Of a stretch of 64,000 nt of DNA, positions 29,745 to 42,269 are shown in pieces. Within the stretch, counting starts at the first letter, position 1; every line of letters starts with the position of its first letter. The translations under genes were made by a program, and so were the position numbers. A model generated the notes under the pieces. The model saw only the letters and a list, made by a program, of their open reading frames with translations. It did not search any database and was not told where the DNA came from. The DNA is from Sphingopyxis jiangsuensis. Lineage in GTDB: Bacteria; Pseudomonadota; Alphaproteobacteria; Sphingomonadales; Sphingomonadaceae. The DNA lies in contig NZ_JAERPO010000002.1 of NCBI RefSeq assembly GCF_016734905.1, forward strand, positions 1,011,524-1,075,523, in the 5' to 3' direction.

Positions 29745-30842
29745 ATGAGCGATATCGCGGCGATGCAGGCCGGGCTGGTGGAAGAGATTGCGGCGGCGGA
29801 AAATCTCGAGGCGATCGAGGCGCTGCGCGTCGCGGCACTCGGCAAGGCGGGCAGCGTGACCGCGCTCCTCAAATCGCTCGGCGGCATGACCCCCGACGAA
29901 CGCCAGGCGCAGGGGCCGCTGATCCACGGGCTTCGCGAGGAGGTCACCGCCGCGATCGCCGCGCGCAAGGCAGCGCTCGAAAGCGCGGCGCTCGACGCCA
30001 AGCTGGCGGGCGAAACGCTCGACATGACGCTGCCCGCCGACGCGGCACCGAAGGGGAGTGTCCATCCGGTAAGCCAGGTGATGGACGAGCTTGCCGAAAT
30101 CTTTGCCGACATGGGGTTTGCGGTCGCAACAGGGCCGGAGATCGAGGACGACTGGCATAATTTCACCGCGCTCAACATTCCCGAGACGCATCCGGCGCGG
30201 GCGATGCATGATACTTTTTATTTTCCGGAAGTTGGCGAAGGTGCCGCGCAGCGGATGTTGCTGCGGACGCATACGTCGCCGGTGCAGATCCGGACGATGA
30301 TGGAAAAAGCGCCTCCGATCAGGATCATAGCGCCGGGGCGCGTCTATCGCAGCGATAGCGACGCGACGCATACGCCGATGTTTCACCAGGTCGAAGGTCT
30401 CGTCATCGACCGCGGCATCCACATGGGCCACCTCAAATACACGCTCGAGACCTTCCTCAAGGCCTATTTCGAGACCGACGACATCGTGCTGCGGCTGCGC
30501 CCGAGCTATTTCCCCTTCACCGAACCCTCGGCCGAGGTCGATGTCGGCTACGCCCAGGAAAAGGGCCGCCGCATCGTCGGCGGCAACGGCGACGACGAGG
30601 GCCATGCGTGGATGGAATTGCTCGGCAGCGGGATGGTCAATCGCCGCGTGATCGCCAATTGCGGACTCGACCCCGACGAATGGCAGGGCTTTGCCTTCGG
30701 GGTGGGGGTCGACCGGCTCGCGATGCTGAAATATGGGATGGACGATCTGCGCGCCTTCTTCGACGGCGACCTGCGCTGGCTGGCGCATTACGGGTTCGGC
30801 GCGCTGAATGTCCCGACGCTGAGCGGGGGGATTTCGGCATGA
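29745..30842 (+). CDS. pheS: Phenylalanyl-tRNA synthetase, alpha subunit
   Basis: PheS is the catalytic chain of the (alpha-beta)2 class II enzyme. A coiled-coil N-terminal arm (about residues 1-85) precedes the class II core; motif 1 runs through [19 protein letters not shown], motif 2 includes [12 protein letters not shown] and [18 protein letters not shown], and motif 3 is [17 protein letters not shown]. The start [11 protein letters not shown] gives 365 residues, near the family norm. Its stop overlaps the pheT start (ATGA). Confidence 0.97.
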
Positions 30843-33223
30843 AGATCACCCTCGACTGGCTTCGCGACCATCTGGACGGCGATTTCACCGTCGCGGACGT
30901 CGTCGCCACGCTCAACCGCATCGGCCATGAGGTCGAAGGCGTCGAGAATCCGGCCGAAAAGCTCGCCGGTTTTCGCGTCGCCAAGGTGCTGACCGCCGAA
31001 AGGCATCCGCAGGCCGACAAGCTGCAACTGCTCACCGTCGACAGCGGCGACGGCGTGCCGCTGACCGTCGTGTGCGGCGCGCCCAACGCGCGCGCGGGCC
31101 TTGTCGGCGTGCTCGGGCTGCCCGGCGCGGTGGTGCCCGCGAACGGCATGGAGCTGAAGGTCGCGGCGGTGCGCGGCGTCGAATCGAACGGCATGATGTG
31201 CTCGTCGCGCGAACTCGAACTCGGCGACGACCATGACGGGATCATCGAGCTGCCCGAGGATGCGCCGGTGGGCACGCCCTTCGCCGACTATCAGCAGGCC
31301 AACGACCCGGTGATCGACATAGCGATCACCCCGAACCGGCAGGATTGCATGGGCGTGCGCGGCATCGCGCGCGACCTGGCCGCCGCAGGGCTCGGCACGC
31401 TGAAGCCGCTGACCGTTCCGGTGATCGAGGGCCAGGGCGCCCCGGCGACCGAATTCGGTACCGATGAGCCCGATGCCTGCCCGGCCTTCTATGGCCGGAC
31501 CATCGCGGGCGTCGACAACAAGGTCGCGACGCCCGAATGGATGCGCCGCCGCCTCGAAGCGATCGGCCAGCGGTCGATCTCGGCGCTCGTCGACATCAGC
31601 AATTATGTGATGTTCGACCTCGGCCGCCCGAGCCACATCTATGACCGTGCCAAGCTTCACGGCGCGCTCGTCGCGCGCCGCGCGCGCGACGGCGAGACCG
31701 CCACGGCGCTCAACGGCAAGCAATATGCGCTGACCGATACGATGACGGTGATCGCCGACGAGCGCGAGGTCCACGACATCGCCGGAATCATGGGCGGCGA
31801 ACATTCGGGGTGCAGCGAGGACACGACCGACGTCCTTGTTGAAATCGCCTATTTCACTCCCGAGCGCATCGCGCTGACGGGGCAGGCGCTCGGCCTGACG
31901 AGCGACGCGCGGACGCGCTTCGAGCGCGGCGTCGATCCCGCCTTCCTCGACGACGGCACCGCGATCGTCACCCAATATGTCCTCGACATCTGCGGCGGCA
32001 CGCCGTCGGCGATGACCCGCTCCGGCGCGCCGCCGGTCGAAGCCAAGACGGTCGCCTATGACCCCGCGCTGTCGGCGACGCTCGGCGGTATCGCGATAGA
32101 TCCCGAACGGCAGAAGGCGATTCTCGAGGCGCTCGGCTTCGGCGTCACCGAAGGGAACCCTTGGAAGATTGCGGTGCCGAGCTGGCGCCGCGACGTCGAC
32201 GGTGCGCCCGACATCGTCGAAGAGGTCACGCGCATCACCGGCTTCGACGCGGTCGAATCGGTCGCACTCCCGCGCGACGAGGGCGTCGCAAAGCCGACCG
32301 CGACCCCCGACCAGCTGCTCGAACGCCGCCTGCGCCGCGCCGCGGCGGCGGCGGGCTTTCACGAGGCGGTGACGTGGAGCTTCGTGTCCGAACGCGAAGC
32401 CGCGCCCTTCGGCGGCGGCGCGTGGAGCCTTGCCAACCCGATCAGCGAAGAGCTGAAGGTCATGCGCCCCTCGCTGCTGCCCGGACTGTTGTCGGCGGCG
32501 GCGCGCAACCAGAATCGCGGCGCGGAGAGCATCCGCCTGTTCGAAATCGGGCGGCGCTATCTGGCCGATGCCGAGCATCCGACGCTCGCGCTGCTGATGG
32601 CGGGCGACAAGCGCGCACGCGGATGGCAGGCGGGCAAGGCGGCGCCCTTCGACGCCTTCGACGCCAAGGCCGCGGCGCTCGCATTGCTCGACGCGGCGGG
32701 CGCGCCCGCCGACCGATTGCAGGTGATGGAGGCCGTCGCCGAAGCGGGCATCTGGCACCCCGGCCAGTCGGCGACGCTGCGCCTCGGCCCCAAGGCGGTG
32801 CTCGCCGAGTTCGGCGCGCTCCACCCCGCGCTGACGCGCCATTTCGACGTCGACGGGCCGGTGATCGCGCTGCAGATCTTCCTCGATGCGATCCCGGCGA
32901 AGCGCGCGAGCGGCCCCGCGCGCGCGGCCTTTACCCCGCCCGCGCTGCAATCGGTGCGCCGCGACTTCGCCTTCCTTGCGCCCGCGACGCTGAGCGCCGC
33001 CGACCTGGTGCGCGCGGTGCGCGGCGCCGACAAGGCGGCAATCACCGACGCGCGGCTGTTCGATCGCTTCGCCGGACAGGGCGTGCCCGAGGGGCAGGTG
33101 AGCCTGGCGGTCGAGGTCGAACTGCAACCGCTGGACAAGAGCTTTACCGACGCCGAGCTGAAGGCGATTGCCGACAAGGTCGTCGCGGGGGCGGCAAAGG
33201 TTGGGGCGATTTTGCGCGGTTAG
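30839..33223 (+). CDS. pheT: Phenylalanyl-tRNA synthetase, beta subunit
   Basis: The 794-residue chain starts [14 protein letters not shown] at an ATG overlapping the pheS stop. It contains the EMAP-like tRNA-binding domain (about 39-150), the B3/B4 editing region, B5 domains with [19 protein letters not shown], and a C-terminal ferredoxin-fold anticodon-binding domain (last about 90 residues, [16 protein letters not shown] onward). The last eight codons use GTT, TTG and GGT, which are rare in neighbouring genes. A partial copy of its 3' end lies 413 bp downstream. Confidence 0.97.
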
Positions 33224-33235
33224 GGTCAGGGCCGC
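33221..33235. repeat. Half copy of the TAGGGTC palindromic repeat
   Basis: TAGGGTCAGGGCC begins at the pheT stop codon (TAG) and matches the left part of the repeat seen intact at 42270 and 46460. The right arm is degenerate. Confidence 0.4.
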
Positions 33236-33327
33236 TGGAAGCCCCGTTGTTTGTCGAAGGCGACTGGACAAAGGCGGCGTGACAGGCAACGCGAGGTTTC
33301 CCGAATGCGCTTTGTCAGGGAGGAAAA

Positions 33328-33639
33328 ATGGCGCTCGAGCTTCGCCCGAATTGCGAGTTTTGTGATCGCGACTTGCCGATCGATGCTTTGGACGCGCGTA
33401 TTTGCACCTATGAGTGCACATTCTGCGCCGATTGCGTCGATAATATCTTGCTCAATGTCTGCCCGAATTGCGGGGGCGGATTCGTGCCGCGGCCGATTCG
33501 CCCCGCGAACGAATGGCGCCCCGGCGTGTCGCGCGTCCACCAGCCTCCGTCGACGCAGCGTCGCAAGGTGAGTTATGACGCCGAGAATATACGGGCGCAT
33601 TCGCTCCGCTTGCGCGACATTCCGCCCGAGCAGCGATGA
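33328..33639 (+). CDS. DUF1272 domain protein (small zinc-ribbon-like)
   Basis: The N-terminal 57 residues match DUF1272 (PF06906): LRPNCEFCDRDLP, then ICTYECTFCADCVDN and CPNCGGGFVPRPIRP, giving seven cysteines arranged in CxxC-like pairs, probably holding zinc. The C-terminal half is a polar tail with VHQPPSTQRRK. GGGAGG precedes the ATG by about six bases. The function is unknown. The gene sits between pheT and a fragment of the pheT 3' end, which suggests it was inserted here. Confidence 0.85.
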   Translation: MALELRPNCEFCDRDLPIDALDARICTYECTFCADCVDNILLNVCPNCGGGFVPRPIRPANEWRPGVSRVHQPPSTQRRKVSYDAENIRAHSLRLRDIPPEQR

Positions 33640-33743
33640 GCGCCGCCGACCTGATGCGCGCGGTGCGCGGCGCCGACAAGGCGGCGATTGCCGACAAGGT
33701 CGTCGGCGCGGCTGGCAAGGTCGGCGCCGTGCTGCGCGGCTAG
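33636..33743 (+). pseudogene. Duplicated, internally deleted fragment of the pheT 3' end
   Basis: The 35-codon frame translates to [16 protein letters not shown] joined to IADKVVGAAGKVGAVLRG, with an initial Met. Both parts match the anticodon-binding end of PheT, but about 41 residues between them are missing. The first 47 bases after the ATG differ from pheT at one position; the last third is diverged at wobble positions. Its ATG overlaps the DUF1272 stop (ATGA). It is a remnant, although a short coupled peptide could in principle be made. Confidence 0.8.
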
Positions 33744-33758
33744 GCCGACAATCCGACC

Positions 33759-34313
33759 TTGACCGAGATCCTGATCCTCGCCGTCGGGCTCGCGATGGAC
33801 GCGGTCGCGGTCGCGCTGGTGCGCGGCTCGGTCGGCGAGCATCGCCCGTGGCGCGCGATCGAGGTCGGCCTTTTCTTTGGCATCGCGCAGGGTGTCATGC
33901 CGCTCGCCGGATGGGCGCTCGGCACCGCCTTTGCCGACCAGATCGCCGCAATCGGCCATTGGGTTGCCTTTTTGCTGCTCGCCCTCCTCGGCGGGCGGAT
34001 GATCCATGAGGCCCTGGGGGCGCACGACGATGCCGCCGGATCGAAGGCGCGGTCGCATTATGCGGGCCTCGCTATCGCGGCCGTGGCGACAAGCATCGAT
34101 GCGGCGGCCGCCGGCATCGCGCTGCCCCTGCTCGATGCGCCGGTTGCGCTGTCGTGCCTGATGATCGGCGGCGTAACCGCGCTGCTCTGTGCCTTTGCCT
34201 ATGTCGGCGGCATGCGGGCATCGGAACGGCTGGGGAAATGGGCCGAGCTGGCGGGGGGCGTCATTCTGATCGGGCTGGGCACAAAGATTCTGATCGAGCA
34301 TCTGGCACGATAG
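33759..34313 (+). CDS. mntP: Manganese efflux pump MntP
   Basis: MntP exports Mn2+ across the inner membrane. The 184-residue product has six predicted helices in two homologous halves, with the conserved acidic pairs in LAMDAVAVALVRG near residue 13 and ATSIDAAAAGIAL near residue 110. The start is a TTG (TTG-ACC-GAG-ATC), 16 bp after the pheT fragment. No yybP-ykoY manganese riboswitch fits in the short leader. The gene ends 21 bp before the convergent kinase gene. Confidence 0.9.
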   Translation: MTEILILAVGLAMDAVAVALVRGSVGEHRPWRAIEVGLFFGIAQGVMPLAGWALGTAFADQIAAIGHWVAFLLLALLGGRMIHEALGAHDDAAGSKARSHYAGLAIAAVATSIDAAAAGIALPLLDAPVALSCLMIGGVTALLCAFAYVGGMRASERLGKWAELAGGVILIGLGTKILIEHLAR

Positions 34314-34334: not shown

Positions 34335-36590
34335 TCACTCCGCAGGGGCGAGCATCGCTTCGAGTTCCTTCACCAGCATTGCCGGTCGCAACGGCTTGTC
34401 GAGATGCGGCGAATTGGCAAATACCGGCGAGCGATCGTTCACCCCGTAACTCGATAGCGTCAGAAACGGGGTCCCGTTGCGCCCGAGCCATTCGGCAATC
34501 GGTTCCGACGTCTCTCCGCCCAGATTGATATCGAGCACACCGACATCGCAGGCCTCGGTGTCGAGCAGTTCGATGGCCTGCTTGACCGAACCGACCGGAC
34601 CCAAAATCTCGAACCCCGCATCCTTCAGAAATTCGGCGACCTCGACAGCGATAAGCACCTCGTCTTCGACGACAAGAACGCGTCGTCCGCGCAGGCCCGG
34701 CGCCGCGTCATTCGCCGCTTTCCCCTTCTGGAGACCGGTGCCCGATTCATGCTTTTCGAGCACTTTGCGCGCGGGACATCGTGCACGGCACACGAGGCCG
34801 GTCGGCGCGTAGTCGAGGTCGACTTCACCGTCGATACTGAGTTTCAGGATCCGCTCGATCACCGTCGATCCAAAACCCCGTCGGTCGGGCGCGGCGACCG
34901 GCGGGCCGCCGCATTCGGTCCACGCCAGTTCGAAAACAGGGTCCGCGGTATCGTCGCCGACGATCTGCCAGCTGATGTCGACGGCCCCATCGTCGTTCGA
35001 CAGCGCGCCATATTTCGCCGCATTGGTCGCCAGTTCGTGAAGCGCCATTCCGAATGCCTGCGCCGCAGCCGCGCGAAGGCGCAGATCCGGACCCGAAAGG
35101 CGAATGCGCTGGCCGAAATCCGCGCCGAAATATGCGAGCTGCGACCGGACCAGTTCGTGAATCGGAACATCCTGCCACCCGCTCTGCAACAACACGTCGT
35201 GACTGGCCGCCAGCGCCTGGATACGCTCGTCAAACCGCTCCAGGAATGTCGTCGGATCGCTCGCGACGGTCTGCCGTGCAATGACCTGAACGAGCGCCAG
35301 CATATTCTTGGCGCGATGATTGACCTCGCCCATCAACAGGCGCTCGCGCGCTTCGGCGCGTTTCCGCTCGCCAACGTCGTGCGCTATTTTCGATGCGCCG
35401 ACAATTTCGCCCGACGTGTTGTATATGGGGGACACATTGACGGAAACGTCGACGTGCCGTCCGTCCCGGCAGACGCGAACCGTTTCGTAATTGCTGACCA
35501 TCTCACCCTTGCTGATGCGGGCAAGAATCCTGTCCTCTTCGTCTTTCCGGTCGGCCGGGATCAGGCATGTCACCGAGCGACCCATCATTTCGTCGGCGGC
35601 ATAGCCGTAGATTTTTTCGGCGCCCTTGTTCCAGCTGCGCACGGTGCCGTCCAGCGCGGTCGAAATAATGGCTTCGTTCGACGACGCGACGATGGCCGCA
35701 AGATGCGCGCGCGCCTGTTCGGCGCGACGCCGGTCGGTGATGTCGGTGATCGATGCGTAGAAGAGATTTTCGACGCCGGCAAAATATTGGAGCTGCACGG
35801 CCACGTCATAGAGCGACCCGTCCTTGCGACGATGGGCGGTCTCGAACAGCAGGTTCGGCACCTCTCCCCGGCGCAGGGGGGCAACGAAAGCCAGGAATTC
35901 GTCGCGGGTGAAATCGGGCTTGATATCCCATGGCGTCAGCAATCGCAGCTCGTCCATCGAATAGCCGAGATTTTCGCGCGCGCCGCGGTTGACCAGTTCG
36001 AAGCGACAGGTATCGCCATTGAAAATAAAAACTTCGCTGACCGAATCTTCAACGATCCGCCCCAATCGTTCGTTGATCGATGACGTCATCAGCCGCTCCA
36101 GCTCGGCGGCGGCGCGCCCCGAGAAAAGCTCCAATATCTCCGCAGCCCGATCGCCATGGAGGATCGGCTTTTCGTCGAGCGCCGCCAGCAACCCCAGAAT
36201 CTGCCCCGACGACGAGCGAAGCGGGGTGCCGACATAACTTGTCGCCCCCATTTCCTTGAGCAGATCGTCGCGGGGGAACAGGCTGGTGATATTGTCCGGG
36301 AAGCAACAGGCGCCCTGGGTCACAATATCGGCGCACGGCGAATGCCGGAGATCATATTCGAAATTGTCGATCGGCCCATTGTCCCACGCCGCAAGCGTTG
36401 CGGCGCGGTCGGGGTCGCCCGGCGTCAGGACGCACATAAAGACCCAGCGAACCGACAGCGAATGGGCAAGCGCCTCGACCATCATGGGGAAAAAGGCTTC
36501 GCCGACGACCTTGGAGCAGCCGGCGAGCATTTGGTACACCAGCCCGAAGTGCGATTCCTTGCCCTGCGGCGTCAGCGACATCTGCCCCAT
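34335..36590 (-). CDS. Hybrid histidine kinase of the HWE type (GAF-PAS-PAS-HK-receiver)
   Basis: Domains in order: a GAF-like N-terminal domain (about 15-165), two PAS domains (about 170-290 and 293-415), an HWE/HisKA_2 dimerisation part with phosphoacceptor His425 in EVNHRAKNM, an ATP-binding domain with LHELATNAAKYGALS, and a C-terminal receiver (about 635-751) with Asp687 in GVLDINLGG. HWE kinases of alphaproteobacteria often feed the general stress response through PhyR, or act in light or redox sensing; there is no LOV cysteine motif here. It is convergent with mntP. The ligand and output are unknown. Confidence 0.88.
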   Translation of the reverse strand: MGQMSLTPQGKESHFGLVYQMLAGCSKVVGEAFFPMMVEALAHSLSVRWVFMCVLTPGDPDRAATLAAWDNGPIDNFEYDLRHSPCADIVTQGACCFPDNITSLFPRDDLLKEMGATSYVGTPLRSSSGQILGLLAALDEKPILHGDRAAEILELFSGRAAAELERLMTSSINERLGRIVEDSVSEVFIFNGDTCRFELVNRGARENLGYSMDELRLLTPWDIKPDFTRDEFLAFVAPLRRGEVPNLLFETAHRRKDGSLYDVAVQLQYFAGVENLFYASITDITDRRRAEQARAHLAAIVASSNEAIISTALDGTVRSWNKGAEKIYGYAADEMMGRSVTCLIPADRKDEEDRILARISKGEMVSNYETVRVCRDGRHVDVSVNVSPIYNTSGEIVGASKIAHDVGERKRAEARERLLMGEVNHRAKNMLALVQVIARQTVASDPTTFLERFDERIQALAASHDVLLQSGWQDVPIHELVRSQLAYFGADFGQRIRLSGPDLRLRAAAAQAFGMALHELATNAAKYGALSNDDGAVDISWQIVGDDTADPVFELAWTECGGPPVAAPDRRGFGSTVIERILKLSIDGEVDLDYAPTGLVCRARCPARKVLEKHESGTGLQKGKAANDAAPGLRGRRVLVVEDEVLIAVEVAEFLKDAGFEILGPVGSVKQAIELLDTEACDVGVLDINLGGETSEPIAEWLGRNGTPFLTLSSYGVNDRSPVFANSPHLDKPLRPAMLVKELEAMLAPAE

Positions 36591-36695: not shown

Positions 36696-39452
36696 TCAGG
36701 CCACCTCGACTTCTTCGTCGGCCCCCGCGGCATCGAGCAGGCGCTTCTCCAGGGACTTCACGCGCGCCGCGCTGTCGATTTTCCCGCCGAGCAGGTCGGT
36801 GACATAGAAGGTGTCGACCGCGCGCTCGCCATAGGTCGCGACATGCGCGCTGTGGACGGTGACCTTCGACTGGAAGAGCGCATGCGCGAGCTGGTTGAGC
36901 AGCGCGGGGCGGTCCTGCGCGTTGACCTCGATCACCGTGAACCGGTTCGACGCCTTGTTGTCGACGAACACGTTCGGCGCGACGCGAAAGGCTTCGGCGC
37001 GGGCGCGGGGCAATGCGCGCGCTTCGAGTTTCGGCAGCAGTTTCTGGCGGTTGGCGAGCGCATCCTCGATCGCGCGGGTGAGCCGGGCGATCTGGTCGGC
37101 CTCGTCAAAGGGGCGGCCGAGCGGGTCCTGGACAAGGAAATTGTCGAGCGCGAGCCCGTCGCGCGTCGTGTGGATGCGCGCATCGATGATGTTGCCGCCG
37201 GCGAGATGGATGCCCCCCGCGATGCGATAGAAAAGCCCCGGATGGTCGGCGGCGAGCACCATCACGAGCGTCGCGCCGCGGTCGTCGTCGGGCACCGCCG
37301 CGATATGGAGCGGCGCGCTGCCCGCCTTCTGGATGTGGACGAGGTTCGCGGCGATGACCTCGACCGGCTCGGCGATCCAATAGCTTTCGGGAAGGCGTTT
37401 CGCGAGCTTCGCGAAATCCTTGTCGCCCATGCCGAGCAGCGCCTGCGCATCCTCCTTCTTGTTCGCGATGCGCGCCTCGCGCCCGCGCTGCTTGTGGCCG
37501 AGGCGCAGCACCTCTTCGGCGGCGTCGTAAAGCTCGGTGAGCAGCTGGCGCTTCCAGCTGTTCCAAACGCCGGGCCCGACCGCGCGGATGTCGACGACGG
37601 TGAGGACGAGGAGCAGGCGGAGGCGCTCGGGGCTTTGCACGACCTGCGCGAAGTCGAGGATCGTCTTGAAATCGGCAAGGTCGCGCTTGAACGCGGTCGC
37701 CGACATCAGCAGGTGGTAGCGCACGAGCCACGACACCGTCTCGGTCTCGGCCGCGGTCAGTCCGAGGCGCGGGCAGACGCGCAGCGCAAGCTCGGCCCCC
37801 AAGATGCTGTGATCGCCGCCGCGCCCCTTCGCAATGTCGTGGAGCAGCACCGCCATATAGATGACGCGCCGCGAATGAATCTGCTGCATGATCGCGGTCG
37901 ACAGCGGGTGATCGCCCTTGAGCCGGTTCTGCTCGATATCGGCGAGCAGGCCGATCGCGCGGATCGTATGTTCGTCGACCGTATAATGATGATACATGTC
38001 GAACTGCATCTGCGCGACGACGCGGCCGAAGTCGGGCACGAAGCGGCCGAAGATTCCCGCCTCGTTCATCCAGCGCAGCACCGTTTCGGGGTCGCGCGGG
38101 CTGGTGAGCACGTCGAGGAAGAGCGCATTGGCGCGCGCGTCGCGGCGCACCCCCTGCGTCTCGATGAGCTTTGCATCGTGGCGCGCCTGGCGCATCGCCT
38201 GCGGGTGGATTTCGAGCCCATATTTGTCGGCGAGCGCGAAAATCTCGATCAGCCGCACCGGGTCGGCCTCGAAAAAATCGTCGGACGGGAGCGCGAGCCG
38301 CCCGCGGTCGAGCACGAAGCCGTTGAGCTTGCCGGGGCGGCGGCGGATCGACGGCAGGAACCGCCGCCCGCGCGCCGCGAGCTGGTCGTCGAGGTGCGCG
38401 AGAAAGGTGCCCGTCAGGTCGCCGACGCTTTTGGCGTGGAGGAAATAGAGCTGCATGAAGCGCTCGACCGCGCTTTTCCCCGGCCGCTCGGCAAACTGCA
38501 TCCGCGCGGCAATCTCGCGCTGGAAGTCGAAGGTCAGCCGGTCCTCGGCGCGCCCGGCGAGGGTGTGGAGATGGCAGCGCACCGCGAGCAGGAAATTTTC
38601 GGCGCGCGCGAACTGGCGCAGCTCGCGCGCGGTGAGCAGCCCCGCGTCGACAAGCTCGGGAACGGTGCGGACGCGGTGGATGAACTTGCCGATCCAGAAG
38701 AGCGTGTGAAGGTCGCGCAGCCCCCCCTTCCCTTCCTTCACATTGGGTTCGACGACATAGCGCGAATCGCCCATTTTCTTGTGCCGCTCGTCGCGCTCGG
38801 CGAGCTTGTCGGCAACGAAGGCGCGCGCATTGCCGGCGACGACCTCGGCATCGAAGCGCGCCGCAGCCTGATCGTAAAGGTCGCGGTCGCCCCAGACGAA
38901 ACGCCCTTCGAGCAGTGCGGTGCGGACCGTCAGATCCTCCTTCGCCGCGCGAATCATCTCCTCGAGCGAGCGCGACGAATGGCCGACCTTCAGCCCGAGG
39001 TCCCACAGCGTATAAAGCTGCGCCTCGATCACCTGTTCGGTCCAGCTCGTCTGCTTGAACGGCGTGAGGAAGCCGATGTCGACGTCGCTGTGCGGCGCCA
39101 TTTCGCCGCGGCCATAGCCGCCGACCGCGATCACCGTGATCCGCTCGCCCGCCGAACGGTTGCCCGAGGGATAAAGATGGTCGACGGTGAAATCATGGCT
39201 GAGGCGCACGATCTGGTCGATCAGGAAGGCCGTGGCCTGCGCAGCCAGCCGCCCGTGCGACGGCGCCTCGAGCAGGCGATGCGCGATTTCGCTGTGCCCG
39301 GCGTCGAGCGCTTCCTTGAGCAGCGCGACCATCGCGCGGCGGCGCTGGCCCGTGTCGTTCGTCTCGGCCGCAATCGCAGCGAGCTGTTCGCCCAGCTTGC
39401 GCCGGTCGATTATCGCGCGCCGCTGCGGCAGCTTGTCGAACAGGTCGCTCAT
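36696..39452 (-). CDS. glnD: Bifunctional PII uridylyl-transferase/uridylyl-removing enzyme
   Basis: GlnD senses glutamine and adds or removes UMP on PII proteins to set nitrogen assimilation. The nucleotidyltransferase motif is seen as VGGYGRGEMAPHSDVDIGFL (G-G-x-G-R...DxD), an HD phosphohydrolase domain includes LLHDIAKGRGGDHS, and two ACT domains occupy the C-terminal 200 residues (ATLVMVLAADHPGLFYRIAG and FTVIEVNAQDRPALLNQLAH). The ATG overlaps the mutS stop (ATGA). The length of 918 residues is typical of alphaproteobacteria. Confidence 0.96.
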   Translation of the reverse strand: MSDLFDKLPQRRAIIDRRKLGEQLAAIAAETNDTGQRRRAMVALLKEALDAGHSEIAHRLLEAPSHGRLAAQATAFLIDQIVRLSHDFTVDHLYPSGNRSAGERITVIAVGGYGRGEMAPHSDVDIGFLTPFKQTSWTEQVIEAQLYTLWDLGLKVGHSSRSLEEMIRAAKEDLTVRTALLEGRFVWGDRDLYDQAAARFDAEVVAGNARAFVADKLAERDERHKKMGDSRYVVEPNVKEGKGGLRDLHTLFWIGKFIHRVRTVPELVDAGLLTARELRQFARAENFLLAVRCHLHTLAGRAEDRLTFDFQREIAARMQFAERPGKSAVERFMQLYFLHAKSVGDLTGTFLAHLDDQLAARGRRFLPSIRRRPGKLNGFVLDRGRLALPSDDFFEADPVRLIEIFALADKYGLEIHPQAMRQARHDAKLIETQGVRRDARANALFLDVLTSPRDPETVLRWMNEAGIFGRFVPDFGRVVAQMQFDMYHHYTVDEHTIRAIGLLADIEQNRLKGDHPLSTAIMQQIHSRRVIYMAVLLHDIAKGRGGDHSILGAELALRVCPRLGLTAAETETVSWLVRYHLLMSATAFKRDLADFKTILDFAQVVQSPERLRLLLVLTVVDIRAVGPGVWNSWKRQLLTELYDAAEEVLRLGHKQRGREARIANKKEDAQALLGMGDKDFAKLAKRLPESYWIAEPVEVIAANLVHIQKAGSAPLHIAAVPDDDRGATLVMVLAADHPGLFYRIAGGIHLAGGNIIDARIHTTRDGLALDNFLVQDPLGRPFDEADQIARLTRAIEDALANRQKLLPKLEARALPRARAEAFRVAPNVFVDNKASNRFTVIEVNAQDRPALLNQLAHALFQSKVTVHSAHVATYGERAVDTFYVTDLLGGKIDSAARVKSLEKRLLDAAGADEEVEVA

Positions 39453-42124
39453 ATCTCGTCCGCCGCAATCTGCTTGAGCCGGTAGAGCGCCTCCAATGCC
39501 TCGCGCGGCGCGAGCGCGTCGGGGTCGATTCCGGCGAGCGCGTCGCGCAGCGCATCGCGCACGGCCTCTGGCGCCTCGGCGAGCGTCGCGGCGAACAGCG
39601 GCAAATCGTCGAGTCCCGCGGCGAGCCCGCCGGTCCTTTCGCGCCCCGCCTCGAGCTTGGCGAGCACCGTCTCGGCGCGCCTGACCACCGTGGGGGGCAC
39701 CCCCGCAAGCCGCGCGACGGCAAGGCCATAGCTGCGGTCGGCCGGCCCCTCGGCAAGTTCGTGGAGCAGCACGAGATCGCCCTTCCACTCGCGCGCGCGG
39801 ACATGGTGGAGCGACAGCGCGCCGAGACTCTCGGCGAGCCGCGTCAGCTCGTGATAATGGGTCGCGAAGAGGCAGCGGCAGCGGTTGACCTCGTGCACCG
39901 CCTCGACCACCGACCAGGCGAGCGCGAGCCCGTCGTAGGTCGAGGTGCCGCGCCCGACCTCGTCGAGGATGACAAAGCTTTGCGGCGTCGCCTGCGCGAG
40001 GATCGCCGCGGTTTCGACCATTTCGACCATGAAGGTCGAACGCCCGCGCGCGAGATTGTCGCTCGCGCCGACGCGGCTGAACAGCCGGTCGACGAGTCCG
40101 AGCCTGGCCGAAGCCGCAGGCACGAAGGCGCCCGCCTGCGCGAGCAGGACGATCAGCGCATTCTGGCGCAGGAAGGTCGATTTGCCGCCCATGTTCGGCC
40201 CGGTGACGAGCCACAGCCGGTCGCCCTCCGACAGCGACACATCGTTGGGGACGAACCGTTCGCCCGCCTTCGCCAACGCCGCCTCGACCACCGGGTGACG
40301 CCCGCCGGTCACATCGAGGCACGGCTCGTCGGCGAGGTCGGGGCGGCACCAATTGTGGCTCATCGCATGGTCGGCGAGCGCCGCGGCGACGTCGATACGC
40401 GCGAGCACGTCGCAGCTGGCGGCGATCGCTTCGCGGCGGCGGGTGGCGGCTTCGGTGAGCGCCTCGAGATGCGCGGCCTCGGCGGCGAGCGCGTGGACGC
40501 CCGCCTGCGTCACGCGGCTCGCGGCTTCGTGCAGGTCGGCCGAGTTGAAGCGCACCGCGCCCGCGAGCGTCTGGCGATGGGTGAAGCCCGATTCGGGCGC
40601 CATCAGCGCGTCGGCGTGCTTCGCGGGCACCTCGACATGATAGCCGAGCACGCCATTGTGGCGGATCTTGAGCGCGGCGATGCCCGTGCGCTCGCGATAC
40701 TGCGCCTCGAGCGCGGCGATCGCCTTGCGCCCGTCGCGCGCGGTTTCGCGCAGCGCGTCGAGCGCGGCGTCATAGCCCTCGGCGATATAGCCGCCCTGCG
40801 CGGCATCGACGGGCGGCGTTTCAACGAGCGCGCGGCCGAGTTCGTCGACGAGCGCGCCATGGCCGTCGAGCCCCGGCAGCAGCCGCGCGAGCAACGGCGG
40901 CAGGTCGGCGCGCTGCGCCAGCCGCTCGCGCAGCAGCCGCGCGCCGCCCAGCGCATCGCGCAGCTGCGCAAGATCGCGCGGGCCGCCGCGTCCCGCGACG
41001 AGCCGCCCGAGCGCGCGCCCGGCATCGGGAAGCGCGCGCAGCGCGGCGCGCAGCTCGCCGCGCCACAGCGCATCGCGCGCGAGCGCGTCGACGAGGTCGA
41101 GCCGGTCGAGGATCGCCGCGCGGTTGGTGAGCGGGCTCGCGAGATCGTCGGCGAGCAGCCGCGCGCCCGCCGCGGTGACGGTGCGGTCGATCGTCCCGAG
41201 CAGGCTGCCCTCGCGCGTTCCCGCCATCGTGCGGACGATTTCGAGGCTTTCGCGCGTCGCCGCGTCGATCGCCATCCGGTCCGACGCCGCGACGCGCAGC
41301 GGCGGCTGGAGGAAGGTCGCGCCGCCGGTCCCGACATGGTCGAGATAGGCGGCGATCGCGCCCATCGCGGCGAGTTCGCTGCGGCCGAACTGGCCGAACC
41401 CGTCGAGCGTCTGGACGCCGAACAGCGCTTCGAGCCGTTTCTGCCCCGCGCCGCTCGAAAAATCGGCGGCCGGACGGCGCACGATCTGGCGCACGCCCGC
41501 TGCGGGCGCTTCGTCGGCCGCCTCGCTGAGCAACAGTTCGGACGGCGCGAGGCGCGCGAGTTCGGCGTCGACCTGCGCGCGCGCCACCGCGACAACCTCG
41601 AACCGCCCGGTCGAAATATCGGCGGCGGCGATCGCCACCTCCTCCTCGCTCCCGACGGCGGCAATCGCGGCAAGGCGGTTCGCGCTGCGCCCTTCGAGCA
41701 GCGCCTCTTCGGTCAGCGTGCCCGCGGTGACGAAGCGCACGATGTCGCGCGCGACGAGCGCCTTCGACCCGCCGCGCGCCTTCGCCTCTGCCGGGGTTTC
41801 GACCTGTTCGGCAATCGCGACGCGGTGCCCCGCCTTGATCAGCCGCGCGAGATAGGATTCGGCCGAATGCACGGGAACGCCGCACATCGGCACCGGCTGT
41901 CCGTCATGTTCGCCGCGCGACGTCAGCGCGATGTCGAGCGTCGCCGCGGCCGCCTTGGCATCGTCGAAGAACAGCTCGAAAAAATCGCCCATCCGATAAA
42001 AGAGCAGGCAATCGCCCGCGCGCGCCTTGAGCGCCCAATATTGCGCCATCATCGGCGTCGCTGCGGCGGGGGGAGCGGCAGGGGCGGCGTTGCTGTCGGC
42101 GGCTTTGCGGGCGGTGGCGGGCAT
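39449..42124 (-). CDS. mutS: DNA mismatch repair protein MutS
   Basis: MutS recognises mismatches and recruits MutL. The mismatch-binding Phe-x-Glu lies in YRMGDFFELFFDDA near residue 48. The ATPase domain carries Walker A TGPNMGGKST, the helix-turn segment ARGRSTFMVEM, Walker B VILDEVGRGTSTYDG, and the dimer-interface THYHELTRL. A Pro/Ala-rich extension of about 25 residues precedes the connector-ready core. It is 891 residues and upstream of glnD with overlapping codons, so the two are translationally coupled. Confidence 0.97.
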   Translation of the reverse strand: MPATARKAADSNAAPAAPPAAATPMMAQYWALKARAGDCLLFYRMGDFFELFFDDAKAAAATLDIALTSRGEHDGQPVPMCGVPVHSAESYLARLIKAGHRVAIAEQVETPAEAKARGGSKALVARDIVRFVTAGTLTEEALLEGRSANRLAAIAAVGSEEEVAIAAADISTGRFEVVAVARAQVDAELARLAPSELLLSEAADEAPAAGVRQIVRRPAADFSSGAGQKRLEALFGVQTLDGFGQFGRSELAAMGAIAAYLDHVGTGGATFLQPPLRVAASDRMAIDAATRESLEIVRTMAGTREGSLLGTIDRTVTAAGARLLADDLASPLTNRAAILDRLDLVDALARDALWRGELRAALRALPDAGRALGRLVAGRGGPRDLAQLRDALGGARLLRERLAQRADLPPLLARLLPGLDGHGALVDELGRALVETPPVDAAQGGYIAEGYDAALDALRETARDGRKAIAALEAQYRERTGIAALKIRHNGVLGYHVEVPAKHADALMAPESGFTHRQTLAGAVRFNSADLHEAASRVTQAGVHALAAEAAHLEALTEAATRRREAIAASCDVLARIDVAAALADHAMSHNWCRPDLADEPCLDVTGGRHPVVEAALAKAGERFVPNDVSLSEGDRLWLVTGPNMGGKSTFLRQNALIVLLAQAGAFVPAASARLGLVDRLFSRVGASDNLARGRSTFMVEMVETAAILAQATPQSFVILDEVGRGTSTYDGLALAWSVVEAVHEVNRCRCLFATHYHELTRLAESLGALSLHHVRAREWKGDLVLLHELAEGPADRSYGLAVARLAGVPPTVVRRAETVLAKLEAGRERTGGLAAGLDDLPLFAATLAEAPEAVRDALRDALAGIDPDALAPREALEALYRLKQIAADEI

Positions 42125-42221
42125 GCGCCCTGCTTAGTGACTGGGCGCGGCATGGCAAGGTCGGAGGGGAAATGCGGGCGGAATGGCCGGTATGGAGCGG
42201 GGAGCGGACCTTTCCTGTTCC

Positions 42222-42249
42222 GTCATCCCGGACTCGAGTCCGGGATGAC
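42222..42249. repeat. Perfect 28-bp palindrome between mutS and maeB
   Basis: The arms GTCATCCCGGACTC and GAGTCCGGGATGAC are exact reverse complements with no loop. It belongs with the other CCCGG hairpins of the window and lies in a 291-bp intergenic region between divergent genes. Confidence 0.75.
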
Positions 42250-42269
42250 CGATGAAAGGAAGGTGGCCT

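Follow-up and report, generated by a model that had tools for sequence, protein, structure and literature searches.

How does the 3' end of a housekeeping gene come to be encoded twice, once at the end of the complete gene and once more behind its neighbor? We address this question for the pheT locus of genome G000 (3.13 Mb, six contigs), which lies approximately one million bases into its own contig. The window is the whole stretch of DNA that was analysed, 64,000 nucleotides in length. A preliminary description of this DNA had read the locus as an insertion scar at the end of pheT, in which a foreign DUF1272 gene arrived together with a replacement 3' end and the displaced end was shortened by deletion. 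The scar with its deleted second tail holds up in our analysis; the part that makes DUF1272 a foreign insert with a replacement 3' end is not supported.

Genomic context and genome sample

The gene order is pheT, 104 nt of spacer, DUF1272, a frame of 108 nt, 15 nt, mntP, a kinase gene on the opposite strand, and glnD. The relevant features, with positions in the window, are as follows.

30839..33223, + strand: complete resident pheT (Pfam B3_4, tRNA_synthFbeta, tRNA_bind, FDX-ACB, B5); the repeated sequence stems from its final approximately 230 nt
32991..33037, + strand: resident pheT counterpart of the left half of the scar (46/47 identical)
33167..33223, + strand: resident pheT counterpart of the right half of the scar (44/57 identical)
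33224..33327, + strand: spacer between pheT and DUF1272, which aligns with the corresponding spacer of G010 and G019
33328..33639, + strand: DUF1272 gene, long form of 103 amino acids (Pfam PF06906, E=5e-29), whose orthologues follow pheT in 2 of the 77 downstream regions from other genomes
33636..33683, + strand: left half of the scar (pheT'), almost the same as resident pheT, with its joint at the DUF1272 stop codon
33684..33743, + strand: right half of the scar, a pheT end probably of different history, joined to the left half through a 126-nt in-frame deletion
33759..34313, + strand: mntP, probable newcomer to the right of the scar (Pfam PF02659, E=4e-42), in 1 of 80 genus genomes
34335..36590, - strand: HWE-type histidine kinase, lying between mntP and glnD and containing GAF, PAS and receiver-like parts (Pfam HWE_HK, E=1.6e-23; PAS_9; GAF)
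36696..40352, - strand: glnD-bearing frame, right flank of the variable interval (Pfam GlnD_UR_UTase, E=5.8e-48; HD; ACT)

The DUF1272 protein belongs to PF06906 (100.6 bits, curated cut-off 25.3) and the MntP protein to PF02659 (144 bits, cut-off 24.4); the Response_reg match of the histidine kinase, at 29.2 bits, falls slightly below its cut-off of 30.2. No DNA match to this kinase gene was found in the pheT downstream regions of other genomes, and a promoter and terminator scan returned nothing usable.

The comparison set comprised 79 other genomes of the genus, and the place of pheT was located in 79 of the 80. Downstream regions were compared in 78 genomes including G000 (77 others), with G067 (no match) and G021 (pheT at a contig edge) excluded. 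The C-terminal part of glnD was reached in 62 of these 78 regions; in the remaining 16 the interval could be followed only part of the way. A tree of pheS and pheT was built from 39 genomes (40 were fetched, and one was dropped for a partial pheT match).

Structure of the second pheT end

Comparison of the window with itself (blastn, word 11, E<1e-4) returned two direct repeats, both of them copies of the pheT end, as the sole direct repeats in the window. The first pairs 33634-33695 with pheT 32988-33049 (92% identity, spacing 646), and the second pairs 33683-33744 with pheT 33163-33224 (79% identity, spacing 520). The one remaining match is a near-perfect 34-nt palindrome (94%) at 42219-42252. 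Since the two spacings differ by 126 nt, the scar at 33636-33743 contains an in-frame internal deletion: it is a second copy of the pheT 3' end, internally deleted, which starts at the DUF1272 stop and ends 15 nt before mntP. The bracketing of DUF1272 by pheT and a second pheT 3' end, which the preliminary description had pointed out, is thus real, and so is its reading of the 108-bp frame as two separate pieces of that end, as the spacings of 646 and 520 confirm. A profile of pheT ends from the genus detected both halves, each with E of approximately 1e-7, in 463 kb of downstream sequence.

The two halves differ markedly in their similarity to the resident gene. The left half (33637-33683) is the same as resident pheT at 46 of 47 positions, as had been stated for the first 47 bases, and the right half (33687-33743) at 44 of 57. 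The differences in the right half had been described as lying mainly at wobble positions, which is partly the case (8 of 13 are third positions, counted by eye). The contrast in identity is significant (Fisher p=0.0027), and a comparable combination of a close left and a distant right part occurs in only 2 of 2775 species pairs from 75 genomes; both observations suggest that the two halves of the scar probably have different histories. A search of 397 family genomes for a donor of the right half gave no evident candidate, 88% identity being the best among the matches listed.

The resident pheT end

If the resident end had replaced a native one, it might be expected to look foreign. Over the 57 comparable nucleotides, the mean identity to other genomes is 0.769 for the resident end and 0.756 for the right half of the fragment, so the resident tail is as near to the genus as the fragment is, contrary to the proposed replacement. 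No foreignness of the resident end can be measured in this way, and judging from identity neither tail can be called native. An apparent closeness of the resident tail to relatives (approximately 0.8 against approximately 0.7) came from a comparison that took in 9 nt of the junction, and it disappeared on the 57 nt. The terminal codons GTT, TTG and GGT, which had been considered unusual, occur in the last stretch of pheT in 16, 17 and 7 of 75 genomes, respectively, and the GC3 of the last 19 resident codons is 0.74, compared with a genus median of 0.84 and a 5th percentile of 0.72; the ending is mildly unusual only.

When similarity was followed along pheT of G000, another clade outscored its own in 17 of 31 windows, the last four among them. 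Outside these four, the gene leans slightly to another clade in 13 of 27 windows. Because the lean toward another clade extends over 17 of the 31 windows, a possible switch in the terminal part of the gene does not stand out. The resident pheT tails of G010 and G019, the other two genomes with the same DUF1272 neighbor, follow their own clade or tie.

DUF1272 and mntP as neighbors of pheT

A short DUF1272 match is present elsewhere in the genome in 80 of 80 genomes, and the long form in 3 of 80. In all three carriers (G000, G010 and G019) the long form lies directly after pheT, and the spacer plus gene are approximately 86-88% identical among them. G000 also has a second, shorter DUF1272 gene at C1:216038-216247. 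The three carriers are not sisters in the pheS and pheT tree, in which G000 groups with seven other genomes (support 0.997). Third-position identity among the carriers is 0.80, 0.80 and 0.86 for DUF1272, compared with 0.67-0.77 for pheT and 0.67-0.74 for pheS. We judged this divergence against 109 equal-length windows along pheS and pheT: for the three pairs, 13, 0 and 1 of these windows reach or exceed DUF1272 at third positions, and 30, 24 and 1 at fourfold sites. DUF1272 is somewhat less diverged than pheS and pheT, a pattern that points to an old presence with many losses and perhaps to exchange between lineages. On these comparisons DUF1272 is probably an older resident neighbor of pheT and no recent insertion in G000 alone; the suggestion that it is foreign loses ground, as G010 and G019 share the arrangement including the spacer.

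Within the family, the long form is scattered. Seven full-length genes outside the genus, at 53-76% identity, were found among the matches listed for 397 genomes. pheT is absent from these seven loci, and neither they nor one locus of the short form showed a duplicated end of the left neighbor above the level of shuffled sequences.

The opposite pattern is seen for mntP: none of the other 79 genomes of the genus (some are incomplete) gave a match, and the gene is thus present in 1 of 80 genomes, or 1 of 70 nearly complete ones. It is found in 45 of 298 sampled family genomes, G000 included, with at most 61% identity outside G000, and its best match in a named genome collection is 64% identical. 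Among the 44 other family genomes that carry mntP, none has it adjacent to pheT, the nearest pair on one contig lying approximately 20 kb apart; adjacency was judged from coordinates, and breaks in fragmented genomes could hide a case. The preliminary description had expected strains without DUF1272 to have pheT directly followed by mntP, and no relative has this arrangement. This distribution suggests that mntP is probably the newcomer at the locus.

Gene turnover between pheT and glnD

Where glnD was seen, in 62 genomes, pheT and glnD lie between 3 nt and 9.6 kb apart. The first gene after pheT is an Abhydrolase_3 gene in 32 of 78 genomes, a DUF1905 gene in 6 and DUF1272 in 3; the remaining 37 have none of the three in this position. 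These three genes are alternatives and never stand together in first place after pheT. A clean swap is visible between G019 and the pair G002/G056: they have in common the segment from a short-chain dehydrogenase gene to glnD (86.8% identity), but G019 has DUF1272 where the other two have DUF1905. We conclude that the interval between pheT and glnD is a place where genes turn over in this genus. A Pfam search of eleven interval proteins (eight cargo proteins, the kinase, an EAL protein and an RES protein) found no match to a recombinase family, and no recombinase was evident by eye among the open reading frames of seven intervals.

Parallel scars in related genomes

Clear scars are rare, being strong in 2 of 78 genomes and moderate in 1. 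In G055, pheT is followed by a DUF1905/OmdA gene, then by an internally deleted pheT end, in frame and open, and then directly by an araC-EAL block. The left part of this remnant (profile E=7.6e-10) is the same as the genome's own pheT at 57 of 76 positions and as other pheT genes at up to 63 of 76; the right part matches several other pheT ends at 35 of 36 positions and its own at 30 of 36. Judging from these matches, the left half in G055 appears not to derive from its own pheT, unlike in G000 and G010. The genomes G002 and G056 are colinear with G055 in two stretches, a first that runs up to and includes the DUF1905 stop (92%) and a second that starts at the short-chain dehydrogenase and continues to glnD (89%). 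Between these points G055 carries approximately 3.4 kb of extra DNA, which begins just after the DUF1905 stop with the pheT remnant. As this segment is missing from G002 and G056, the comparison sets an occupied site beside an unoccupied one.

G033 has no cargo gene, and the araC-EAL block begins directly after its pheT stop. The block is 88.8% identical between G033 and G055 over 3066 nt, compared with 82.5% for pheT of the same pair, a sign of exchange between lineages. In G037, the sister of G055 in the tree, the block is approximately 77-78% identical although pheT is 91% identical. G033 could represent either the donor or the recipient type, and transfer could have run in either direction. 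An arrangement free of the insertion thus exists for this parallel case, in the block right after pheT of G033 as compared with G055, and is absent for the window itself.

G010 carries a decayed pheT remnant at the DUF1272 stop, at the same joint as in G000. With a collinear score of 56 it lies above every one of 1494 null windows, whose maximum is 53; the locus was one of eight tested. Its score against its own pheT was reached by 0 of 500 shuffles, and that against pheT of G000 by 6 of 500. The remnant was missed by the profile search with genus pheT ends, and in the pheT-end scan G010 ranks just under a match in G078 that we take for chance. That match (score 41, shuffle maximum 33) and a similar one in G057 (33 against 30) are probably alanine-rich coincidences; in both, the look-alike is the 3' end of the Abhydrolase_3 gene, which aligns weakly to the pheT end, stop on stop. 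No pheT remnant was seen in G019, G002 or G056. In G031 and G037, the score with their own pheT is not above background; the spacer of both genomes aligns with that of G055.

At 10 sites where pheT differs between G000 and G010, the G000 remnant has its own genome's base at 8 and the other's at 1, and the G010 remnant has its own base at 3 and the other's at 1, the rest being gaps or neither. This pattern suggests that, in each of the two genomes, the resident pheT was either the source of the left half or corrected it. The alignment of G000 and G010 runs contiguously through the joint of the scar, so the fragment could predate mntP; a shared origin of the two scars followed by conversion may likewise be compatible with this match. 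The bases shared at the DUF1272 stop are TGA in G000 and CTGA in G010, a very short match.

Behind the remnant, G010 has a MerR/DUF433 gene and a DUF5615 (PIN-like) gene, which together resemble a toxin-antitoxin pair, then a remnant of the glnD end, an RES-domain gene, and the real glnD. The glnD 3'-end remnant lies approximately 1565-1638 nt past the pheT stop (E=1.6e-10), ahead of the real gene, and the toxin-antitoxin-like pair is thus flanked by remnants of both core genes. A second, partial glnD end is also found in G025, approximately 3377-3514 nt past the pheT stop (E=2.4e-11). These two are the only genomes with more than one match among the 65 with a glnD-end match, and no second glnD end was found in G000.

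Origin of the scar

In our view the scar probably arose by additive insertion within the variable pheT-glnD interval, with homology in the pheT 3' end as the anchor; for the scars as a group, the anchors would be the ends of both flanking core genes. A genome that already had pheT and DUF1272 would have gained a further block, most likely mntP. The homologous arm would have been a pheT 3' end, of the genome's own type in the left half and derived from a different pheT in the right. The second joint would have been made illegitimately at the DUF1272 stop, perhaps through a few shared bases (TGA, or CTGA in G010). The pheT copy would then have lost 126 nt internally and become a remnant. Two routes could lead to this product. 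In one step, it would arise by homology-facilitated illegitimate recombination. In two steps, a local tandem duplication of the pheT end and its cargo would come first, and a block linked to a pheT end would next replace the second copy through homologous recombination; this gives the same product and accounts well for the own-type left half. One junction within extended homology is seen in the pheT-like left edge of the block in both G000 and G055. A block missing from relatives with an intact site is seen for G055 compared with G002/G056; for the window, mntP is present in 1 of 80 genomes and there is no matching unoccupied site. The repeat, its mosaic make-up, the sharing of DUF1272 with other lineages, the single occurrence of mntP in the genus sample and the parallel scars are direct observations; import from outside, the order of events and the number of steps are what we infer. 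Several results speak against this origin: no donor for the right half was evident, mntP is not adjacent to pheT in any of the 44 other family genomes (several of them fragmented), the left half in G055 departs from its own pheT, G000 has no second glnD end, and clear scars are rare.

The model of the preliminary description is less supported than the homology-anchored additive insertion, and we consider it rather doubtful. Here DUF1272 and a replacement pheT end would have been inserted together, for example as a circle by a single crossover, leaving the fragment as the displaced native tail and mntP as the old neighbor. The geometry fits exactly, and G033, with its block right after pheT, relates to G055, with the same block behind cargo and fragment, as this model would have it. 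The patchy occurrence of long DUF1272 in the family and in three non-sister lineages of the genus, its somewhat lower divergence between lineages than that of pheS and pheT, and the lean of the last four pheT windows of G000 to another clade also agree with it. However, the resident tail is no more foreign than the fragment, another clade is ahead in 17 of 31 windows and not only in the last ones, the tails in G010 and G019 are of their own clade or tied, mntP is unmatched in 79 relatives, and the left half of the supposedly displaced tail is near-identical to the resident copy.

A purely local event, which we regard as improbable, would consist of a tandem duplication of the pheT end and DUF1272, loss of the second DUF1272, decay of the copy, and independent arrival of mntP. 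The left half does follow the own pheT in both G000 and G010, and the joint lies at the shared TGA or CTGA. However, with 44/57 matches the right half is no closer to the resident gene than the pheT end of another species would be, and a single recent local copy does not explain it together with a left half at 46/47; additionally, G010 has a second end of glnD, the other flanking gene, beside its block.

It is very improbable that a mobile element integrated site-specifically into the end of pheT and was later reduced to DUF1272: a gene end duplicated around cargo is the classical picture of such an event (as for e14 in icd), but no recombinase was found among the eleven proteins searched or by eye in seven intervals, the left joints differ between G000/G010 and G055, and the two pheT-end copies are not identical over a core.

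A broader idea extends the homology-anchored insertion. The 3' ends of pheT and glnD might act in this genus as portable docking arms that need no integrase, with remnants carried on cargo blocks allowing cassette-like stacking and swapping of genes in the pheT-glnD interval between lineages. We regard this as speculative and, on present comparisons, unlikely. If core-gene-end remnants do work as recombination arms, genes could be swapped in a simple manner at fixed spots and with no enzymes of mobile elements.

The 35-codon frame

The 108-nt scar forms a frame of 35 codons whose ATG overlaps the DUF1272 stop (ATGA). The Arg codon before this stop is CGA in G000 and CGC in both relatives that bear the gene, and the ATG exists because of this difference. 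The frame is probably accidental and inherited from pheT. That it is a functional small gene, translationally coupled to DUF1272, seems to us highly unlikely. The frame is intact, the deletion is in frame, the ATGA overlap is of a suitable kind, and the pheT copy of G055 is also open; against this, the ATG hangs on a third-position difference, the copy in G010 is decayed, a Pfam search with the 35-codon product gave no match, and the open frame comes from pheT in any case.

Relation to known systems

The locus offers a small example of gene accumulation beside housekeeping genes, whose consequences for pheT, DUF1272 or mntP biology are not large. The parallel case in G055 adds that relatives display the site both with and without the insertion, together with a plausible donor arrangement. 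Our literature search found no paper that joins pheT, glnD and a hotspot, and DUF1272 turned up in one paper, where it is mentioned once.

Homology-facilitated illegitimate recombination is described in a passage of PMC3240628 for Streptococcus, Acinetobacter and Pseudomonas stutzeri, and for E. coli conjugation. It is discussed for variable segments in part of PMC2884548 and invoked for shifted effector ends in Vibrio in part of PMC5361080. As in our case, one end of the incoming DNA is homologous and the other is not, and new genes come to lie beside conserved sequence (PMC3240628, in the same passage); unlike in that work, the pheT' event is read from scars alone. In the type VI clusters of Vibrio cholerae, as presented in part of PMC5361080, a module with an upstream homologous anchor similarly pushes the 3' end of the old gene and its neighbors downstream. 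In those clusters the anchor is part of the region of the module itself; at the pheT locus, an unrelated housekeeping gene provides the anchor with its end, and the cargo genes are mixed. The e14 element in icd of E. coli, with its displaced icdC end, likewise places a housekeeping gene end twice around inserted DNA, but e14 undergoes site-specific excision between 11-bp repeats (a passage of PMC4759930), whereas the pheT' joints vary and a recombinase was not found among the proteins searched. Merodiploids formed during transformation of pneumococcus are also partial duplications born of genetic exchange, according to a part of PMC3784515; in contrast to these, what is found here is a remnant of 108 nt. 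Set beside these systems, the pheT' scar adds a new case to a kind of event that is already known.
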